NCBI GenBank assembly: GCA_001512665.1
Contig: LFSF01000044.1
Span: 1 to 48,932, forward strand
Direction: 5' to 3'
From: Clostridiales bacterium DTU073
GTDB taxonomy: Bacteria; Bacillota; Peptococcia; DRI-13; DTU073
Length of the DNA: 48,932 nt
Positions 13,732-28,245 of the stretch are shown piece by piece; the stretch's first letter is position 1, and the number at the start of each line of letters is the position of its first letter. Both the position numbers and the translations under genes were made by a program. The notes beneath the pieces were generated by a model that searched no databases, was not told the origin of the DNA, and saw only the letters and a program-made list of their open reading frames with translations.

Positions 13732-13970
13732 TCATCTACTATATCGTTTTACTCATCTACTATATCGTTTTACTCTTCCTTGCATTAGGTCAGCTATACA
13801 GACTTAACGATGGTGAAGTGAGAATGCAGAGACGATTACACGATGTAAGCGGCAACTCTCGCAAGTACACGGAGGTACTATCGAGAGTGGTCTGCATTCA
13901 CCTGAACCGAGTTTTAGTCTGTTCTGAGATAATGGATAATGCACAGAAAGTAAAACGATATAGTAGATGA
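13732..13970. repeat. Structured repeat element, copy A (candidate ncRNA or miniature mobile element)
   Basis: A 21-base sequence (13753-13773) recurs inverted at 13950-13970; an extra exact direct copy of the left arm lies at 13732-13752. Inside, nested helices can form: 13781-13787 with 13937-13943; 13798-13804 with 13916-13922; GGT 13812-13814 with ACC 13906-13908; GAATGCAGA 13822-13830 with 13891-13899. This last helix closes a junction of two hairpins (TTACA 13836-13840 with 13844-13848; CTCTCG 13856-13861 with 13882-13887, plus GTAC inner pairs). The core matches copy B at 27831-28034 in sequence and in fold. No ORF of note. It ends five bases before the tRNA-Trp promoter. Confidence 0.8.
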
Positions 13971-13974
13971 ACGG

Positions 13975-14003
13975 TTGACAGAGTGCCCTTTATCTTTTAT
14001 AAT
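13975..14003 (+). promoter_or_regulatory. Sigma-A promoter of tRNA-Trp
   Basis: TTGACA at 13975-13980, 17 bases, TATAAT at 13998-14003, a consensus match. Transcription would start about eight bases before the tRNA 5' end. Confidence 0.85.
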
Positions 14004-27686: not shown

Positions 27687-27708
27687 ACAATCACCTTATT
27701 TCTTTTCT

Positions 27709-27808
27709 ATATACTGTACCATTTTACATTTTTTTGTAGAGTACTGCTAAATAGACTTAATGAAGCCGAATTTAGTCTATTCTGGACGAAACACCTAAAA
27801 CGGAAAAT
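27709..27808. repeat. Structured repeat element, internally deleted copy B'
   Basis: The left arm (ATATACTGTACCATTTT, 27709-27725) and the basal helix (AATAGACT, pairing with AGTCTATT) match copy B closely, and the right flank CTGGACGAAACACC and AAAACGGAAAAT are identical. The branched interior of B (about 27888-27980) is missing, leaving a short loop, and the end of the right arm is replaced by other sequence. Confidence 0.75.
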
Positions 27809-27830: not shown

Positions 27831-28034
27831 ATATACTGTACCATTTTCCGTTTTTTTGTAAAGTACAGCTAAATAGACTTAATGAAGGCGAAGTGAGAAA
27901 GCAGAGGGGCGAACAGGACGTGAGCCCCAACCCTCGCAGTACAAGGATGTACATCGAGGGTGGTCTGCTTTCTCCTGAGCCAAATTTAGTCTATTCTGGA
28001 CGAAACACCTAAAACGGAAAATGGTACAGTATAT
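27831..28034. repeat. Structured repeat element, copy B (candidate ncRNA or miniature mobile element)
   Basis: A perfect 24-base terminal inverted repeat (27831-27854 and 28011-28034) encloses nested helices: AATAGACT 27872-27879 with 27988-27995; GGC 27887-27889 with GCC 27979-27981; an 11-base helix 27895-27905 with 27964-27974. The latter closes a junction of hairpins GGGGC 27906-27910/27924-27928 and CCCTCG 27931-27936/27955-27960, the second extended by GTACA/TGTAC. With a one-base gap the outer helix extends to 27825 and 28041. The core is homologous to copy A, with compensatory changes. No coding potential seen. Confidence 0.8.
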
Positions 28035-28104: not shown

Positions 28105-28245
28105 TTGGCTGGTTATACCTGTCTCTCTTGCGGAAAAAATTCCAAACTACCTGATTTTTGTTGTGGCCAAAGCATGCAACAACAAGATAATTGTAATACT
28201 CAGGCAAACACTCAAAATTGTAATTCACCAACACGCAAACAATAA
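28105..28245 (+). CDS. Small Cys-rich protein, 46 residues
   Basis: TTG 28105 is seven bases after a strong GGAGGTG site and opens a 46-residue frame: MAGYTCLSCGKNSKLPDFCC, then GQSMQQQDNC with an Asn/Gln-rich tail. The CxxC and CC pairs could hold zinc or another metal, like a minimal zinc ribbon. It is followed by a hairpin terminator. I know no family. It lies 70 bases downstream of structured element B on the same strand. The strong ribosome site and the terminator are the main support. Confidence 0.55.
   Translation: MAGYTCLSCGKNSKLPDFCCGQSMQQQDNCNTQANTQNCNSPTRKQ

Follow-up and report, generated by a model that had tools for sequence, protein, structure and literature searches.

Two palindromic units with a shared fold

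The 48,932-bp stretch of Clostridiales bacterium DTU073 DNA analyzed here (contig LFSF01000044.1, the window) carries two distant units, copies A and B, in which base pairing rather than sequence appears to have been preserved: are these genes for a structured RNA, or are they DNA elements that fold? The initial annotation, which pointed them out, thought an RNA (or hairpin DNA) structure likely. Both copies are real, lie at the positions originally given for them (Table 1) and have a four-helix core in common. The element consists of a long rod in which G-A internal loops occur, a three-way junction, two hairpins with GGA-type loops and closing outer arms, and its computed folding energy is -110.4 kcal/mol for copy B (z = -13.9 relative to shuffled sequence) and -91.6 kcal/mol for copy A (z = -9.9). 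The compensatory differences first reported between them are present: the junction-closing helix has a T-A pair in A and an A-T pair in B (GAATGCAGA/GAAAGCAGA), the hairpin CTCTCG/CGAGAG of A is CCCTCG/CGAGGG in B, and GGT/ACC is replaced by GGC/GCC, while the motifs GAAGTGAG and CCTGA are the same in both.

The terminal arms, on the other hand, had been described as unrelated in sequence, and this proved incorrect. The arm of A (TACTaTAtCgTTTT) aligns with that of B (TACTgTAcCaTTTT) with the common form TACT(A/G)TA(T/C)C(G/A)TTTT, and related genera again have arms of similar consensus (about AAAATATRCTGTACCGTTT), so the arms are diverged homologues. The recurrence of the arm consensus at unrelated loci also rules out the idea that the arms are captured host terminators. 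Two local features had not been noted before, a truncated copy immediately 5' of copy B and a 21-bp tandem duplication of the left arm of copy A.

Table 1. Positions of copies A and B and of their parts in the window.
Feature	Positions	Strand	Remarks
Copy B, whole palindromic unit	27831..28034	+	RF01731 match 27856-28008; own covariance model 27847-28019
Copy B, left outer arm	27832..27854	+	TATACTGTACCATTTTCCGTTTT; right arm is its perfect complement
Copy B, right outer arm	28011..28033	-	
Copy B, junction-closing helix, 5' strand	27890..27905	+	Includes G-A internal-loop motif GAAGTGAG (27890-27897)
Copy B, junction-closing helix, partner	27964-27974		CCTGA (27974-27978) lies opposite the GAAGTGAG-bearing strand
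Copy B, hairpin 1	27906..27928	+	Loop ACAGGACGT
Copy B, hairpin 2	27930..27961	+	Has GTACAAGGATGTAC; includes CsrA consensus RUACARGGAUGU (string taken from papers)
Truncated copy immediately 5' of B	27708..27808	+	Consists of arms and basal helices and lacks the central hairpins; right arm not complete
Copy A, whole palindromic unit	13753..13970	+	Own covariance model 13772-13947
Copy A, left outer arm	13732..13774	+	TCATCTACTATATCGTTTTACT, tandem duplicate (starts 13732 and 13753)
Copy A, right outer arm	13949..13970	-	

The core is that of the Rfam family TwoAYGGAY

The units had at first not been matched to any known RNA class, but copy B belongs to RF01731 (TwoAYGGAY): it scores 45.7 bits where the gathering score is 43 bits, a match that the fast filter of Rfam overlooked. 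Copy A falls below this cut-off at 34.1 bits, and a different host copy reaches 58.8 bits. The strict AYGGAY loops are absent from both copies (CAGGAC and AAGGAT in B, ACGATG and ACGGAG in A); GGA is present in both loops of B, and a strict ATGGAC loop occurs in relatives, for example in genome G029. TwoAYGGAY resembles our copies in having a three-way junction and two GGA-loop hairpins, and its external stem, described as poorly conserved in the RMfam study (PMC4333381), corresponds to the copy-specific outer arm found here. The initial annotation had named a match to an Rfam family in advance as a finding that would count against it; such a match did occur, and the family matched has no known function.

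The published picture of TwoAYGGAY differs from the one below. Weinberg et al. (2010) judged it to be a probable RNA that is not cis-regulatory (PMC2864571), and it was later proposed to be an sRNA that sequesters CsrA (PMC4333381); no description of it as a dispersed palindrome, of its location at gene ends or of nesting was found. Nor did the literature searched, supplementary files excepted, contain a description of TwoAYGGAY as a mobile repeat with within-copy arm matching, antisense placement and nesting. The core family itself is known.

Dispersal, empty sites and nesting

How many such units are there? When 12 copies were used to build a covariance model, a check of the kind proposed at the outset, it found many more and, together with blastn, placed the element at about 20 dispersed positions in the 1.67-Mb host genome. 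Host copies are units of about 200-230 bp with arms of 22-30 bp and no coding capacity, and there are two core types, type A and type B. The element is carried by four of the seven genomes of the family and by 18 of the 46 genomes of the class, at one to 31 copies each. Its presence is patchy; for example, G002 has eight copies and its congener G001 has none. Genomes G027 and G029 contain near-identical copies whose flanks differ, as is expected of recent spread. No matches indicating plasmid or phage origin were obtained, and an exact-core scan of GTDB and IMG/VR contigs found none, an uninformative result given that the pattern was narrow and the contigs scanned may not include near records.

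Two G002 sites that carry the element have empty counterparts in G001, G003 or G005, which are different species rather than strains. The first is a spacer of about 20 nt between SpoIID and QueA in G001, apparently inside an operon, and the second (L097) has a plain terminator hairpin instead of the element in both G001 and G003. Elements are also found within elements: type B elements are inserted within the stems or cores of type A elements, and several host copies contain a palindrome of about 75 nt (GGGGACACACCGC...GCGGAATGTCCCC) in the loop of hairpin 2 (L031, L033, L034 and L113, with upstream fragments at L021 and L030); in L208 this palindrome lies elsewhere. No target-site duplication was seen by eye in the flanks inspected, where the exact terminal bases of the element are not defined, and inspection of ten single arm-like sites of the host revealed no parent element with the same ends and a transposase. 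No Y1 (RAYT) transposase was detected in G000, G002, G014, G021 or G027, and its absence from several carriers rules it out as the mobilizing enzyme.

Several smaller observations concern the same loci. The ~75-nt palindrome resembles REP sequences, but no Y1 transposase could be detected in the host. Upstream of the core matches at L099 and L100 of G002, type B elements contain a further nested palindrome, a third and unrelated one (arms GCAAAGTATT..ACC / GGTAATACTTTGC), which brings to at least three the palindrome families that nest in one genome. Upstream of many full copies (L022, L025, L026, L029, L031, L033, L038, L096, L098, L099 and L106) lie a partial copy of the same kind and a pyrimidine-rich linker of about 20-30 nt (CTTCCTT or CCTCTTCC), as though by local duplication of units. 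The outer arms are repeated in tandem at one end of L121 and L123 of G006 with a period of about 22 nt, like the left arm of copy A. L035 (G000:C17:54622-54677) is a stem-only derivative in which both outer arms surround a short unrelated center, and an antisense ORF has its apparent stop codon directly before it. Finally, a composite of types A and B at L209 (G000:C27:139041) appears to be interrupted by a sequence in which AAAAGTACCCCAC is repeated and which may be the end of an insertion sequence.

Pairing in the element compared with pairing in RNA

That pairing and not sequence is conserved, as had been claimed from two copies, is borne out by 12 copies from the same host genome, in which 28 of 53 pairs have changed on both sides; shuffled controls average 10.9 such pairs, none of 500 reaches 28, and the number falls to 4-6 when the pairing partners are slid. 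The outer arms change together within a copy, with 7% mismatch between the two arms of one copy and 40% difference between copies. Is this pairing kept in an RNA or in the DNA? RNA pairing tolerates G-U but not A-C. The host copies have 11 G-U and 11 A-C oppositions, each 1.7% of pairs, whereas RNase P RNA of the same family has 8.6% G-U and the nine tRNAs in the window have 8.4% G-U, both with no A-C (11:11 against 46:0 for the controls, Fisher p 5e-7). A larger set of 80 aligned matches, which includes some opposite-strand self-matches and weak matches, gave 96 G-U and 76 A-C. Decay of old copies raises G-U and A-C alike; in the consensus folds of eleven subfamilies, from which private decay is largely removed, G-U accounts for 2.9% of plus-strand and 2.3% of minus-strand pairs. 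Because G-U is no commoner than A-C, unlike in the RNase P and tRNA controls, these measurements point to pairing that is kept at the DNA level, evidence that we consider strong but not absolute. Two observations count against a mobile DNA: 20 young copies of subfamily f9 have a mild G-U excess (14:5), and conservation of the loops and G-A motifs is confined to the plus strand, as it might be in an RNA. One orthologous pair also has five G-U changes, in a fold that cannot show A-C.

On balance we think it somewhat probable that copies A and B are non-autonomous mobile palindromic repeats of about 200-230 bp, similar in kind to MITEs, ERIC and EFAR, which have TwoAYGGAY as their heart and spread as DNA.

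Placement at gene ends

The positions of the elements relative to genes bear both on this reading and on its strongest competitor. In nearly all of the type A copies of the host, G002 and G004, an antisense gene has its stop codon no more than about 10 nt from the start of the right arm, and ten of these antisense genes were confirmed as genuine by Pfam (PcrA/UvrD, PgpA, LeuA, GatB and others, one of them a metalloenzyme resembling GpmI). Copies between co-directional genes are antisense to them in 38 cases and sense in four, with neighbors taken as simple ORF calls and the copies not all independent; this orientation and the adjacency to stop codons are direct observations for the host's family, and elements in G021, which have a different outer stem, have no orientation bias. 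In the window, copies A and B each have a minus-strand gene on one side. On the right of copy A is a plus-strand tRNA-Trp gene, whose promoter (TTGACA-17-TATAAT, 13975-14003) begins 4 nt past the right arm, and on the right of copy B is a small plus-strand ORF (28106-28243) that has a strong ribosome-binding site and encodes a 46-aa, Cys-rich product with no Pfam family.

Nine gene ends are each occupied in two genomes, where a rough estimate predicts about one. The pair that follows the gpmI-like gene is clearly orthologous (87% identity); at the other orthologous sites with an element in both genomes, the two elements are not most closely related to one another, and several of these comparisons are between unlike core types. 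From these nine gene ends and the gpmI-like pair, long retention at some sites is likely, which suggests that copies at gene ends are kept better than a neutral repeat would be and so counts against the mobile-repeat reading. Could the element then be a cis-acting RNA of mRNA 3' ends, in which a hairpin transcribed from the element's minus strand terminates transcription or protects the message upstream, selection on this RNA maintains the pairing, and its usefulness spreads or retains the copies? It is mainly the likely long retention that leads us to keep such a functional cis role under consideration. The adjacency to stop codons fits it too, as do the A-run and T-run ends, which are like those of terminator-type stem-loops near Firmicutes stop codons (PMC1590033), and the plain terminator that takes the place of the element at the empty L097 site. 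A transcribed hairpin should, however, have a G-U excess on one strand or the other and has none; its conserved loops and G-A motifs would lie on the strand that is not transcribed; the SpoIID-QueA copy of G002 sits in what is a short and apparently intra-operon spacer in G001; and a terminator has no need of a 200-nt branched core. We judge this alternative unlikely as a whole.

Possible RNAs expressed from the plus strand

A second alternative is that the element is a gene for a structured RNA that acts in trans and is expressed from the plus strand of many dispersed copies. Strong covariation, loops and a junction conserved in eleven subfamilies, and the rating by Weinberg et al. (PMC2864571) speak for such a gene. 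We nevertheless find it improbable: besides the lack of a wobble excess, no conserved promoter is borne by the unit, none that is strong is present at copy B, and the perfect one after copy A is that of tRNA-Trp; most copies are antisense to both neighbors, and many are interrupted by nested insertions. Thus, of the structure first proposed, an RNA or hairpin DNA, the folded pairing stands and the RNA half is the less supported one, since G-U is as rare as A-C, placement is mostly antisense, a conserved promoter is lacking, and the copies are dispersed, have empty sites and are nested in one another. Least probable is the CsrA-sequestering sRNA proposed for TwoAYGGAY in the RMfam study from its loop motif (PMC4333381), in spite of the two hairpins with GGA in nearly all subfamily consensuses, the exact consensus RUACARGGAUGU in hairpin 2 of copy B and the presence of csrA in the host, because the distribution of csrA rules this out as a general function: in seven of the 18 carrier genomes of the class no csrA could be detected (among them G004, 92% complete with nine copies, G006, 94% with 12, and G027, 96% with 18), and within the same family csrA is present and the element absent in G001, G003 and G005.

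A proposed mobile palindromic repeat and its relatives

If the element is a mobile palindromic repeat, it would spread as DNA and land mainly just 3' of stop codons, usually antisense to its neighbors, and its own hairpins would receive other palindromes. Its stem, bounded by an A-run and a T-run, would then form the 3' boundary of the gene, terminator-like in look, and might act as a terminator. The folded plus strand would be single-stranded or cruciform DNA whose loops are recognized by a putative transposase or recombinase, and pairing could be kept by hairpin-templated repair or by recognition of the loops. A sequence-specific binder of the GGA loops probably exists, since a GGA-type motif is conserved in both loops across nearly all subfamilies. 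We offer more tentatively, as a rather doubtful extension, that TwoAYGGAY is not an RNA family at all but a folded single-stranded DNA mobile element, in which a putative recombinase would read the two GGA loops and insert the element antisense at gene ends and in palindrome loops, with hairpin-templated copying matching the arms within a copy and drift separating them between copies.

Known bacterial MITEs such as ERIC, NEMIS, RUP, EFAR and Nezha are dispersed, hairpin-forming elements of 70-300 bp with inverted terminal repeats (PMC3733652). The present element is like them in being short, non-coding and dispersed, in its inverted terminal repeats and strong hairpins, and in often being adjacent to genes; it differs in that its arms vary between copies and match within a copy, its core is more conserved, and for it no target duplication was seen and no parent transposase found. 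REP/BIME sequences are likewise mostly 3' of coding regions and sometimes provide the stop codon (PMC3733652), but REPs are 20-40 bp long with GTAG/CGTC tags and RAYT (Y1) transposases, which are absent from the five carriers examined. MITE-like hairpin repeats near stop codons are thus already known (PMC3733652, PMC1590033), and the literature searched held nothing relevant on structured RNA within bacterial MITEs or on palindromes inserted in hairpin loops. Mitochondrial double-hairpin and other palindromic elements are also mobile palindromes but are much smaller and organellar. Nesting and compensatory change are known in mitochondrial palindromic elements as well.

An orphan Rfam family thereby acquires an identity that is concrete and can be tested, and the one function that we found proposed for it becomes less credible. 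Strong covariation, usually taken as proof of an RNA, can occur in what appears to be a mobile DNA palindrome, and the comparison of G-U with A-C is a cheap way to discriminate RNA from DNA that is applicable to other orphan "RNA" families. The stop-codon placement, antisense bias and nesting of palindromes in palindromes point to an insertion mechanism, for which no description was found in the case of TwoAYGGAY.

An intervening sequence in an RNase P RNA gene

No description of an rRNA-type intervening sequence in an RNase P RNA was found in the literature searched. From its sequence, an insert of about 400 nt in the P12 hairpin of the RNase P RNA gene of G029 (L205:1647-2060) is identified as such an element: inverted GAGGTTAGAGGTCAG-type repeats bound it, and its product is a 23S-rRNA intervening-sequence protein (PF05635, E = 2.8e-33).
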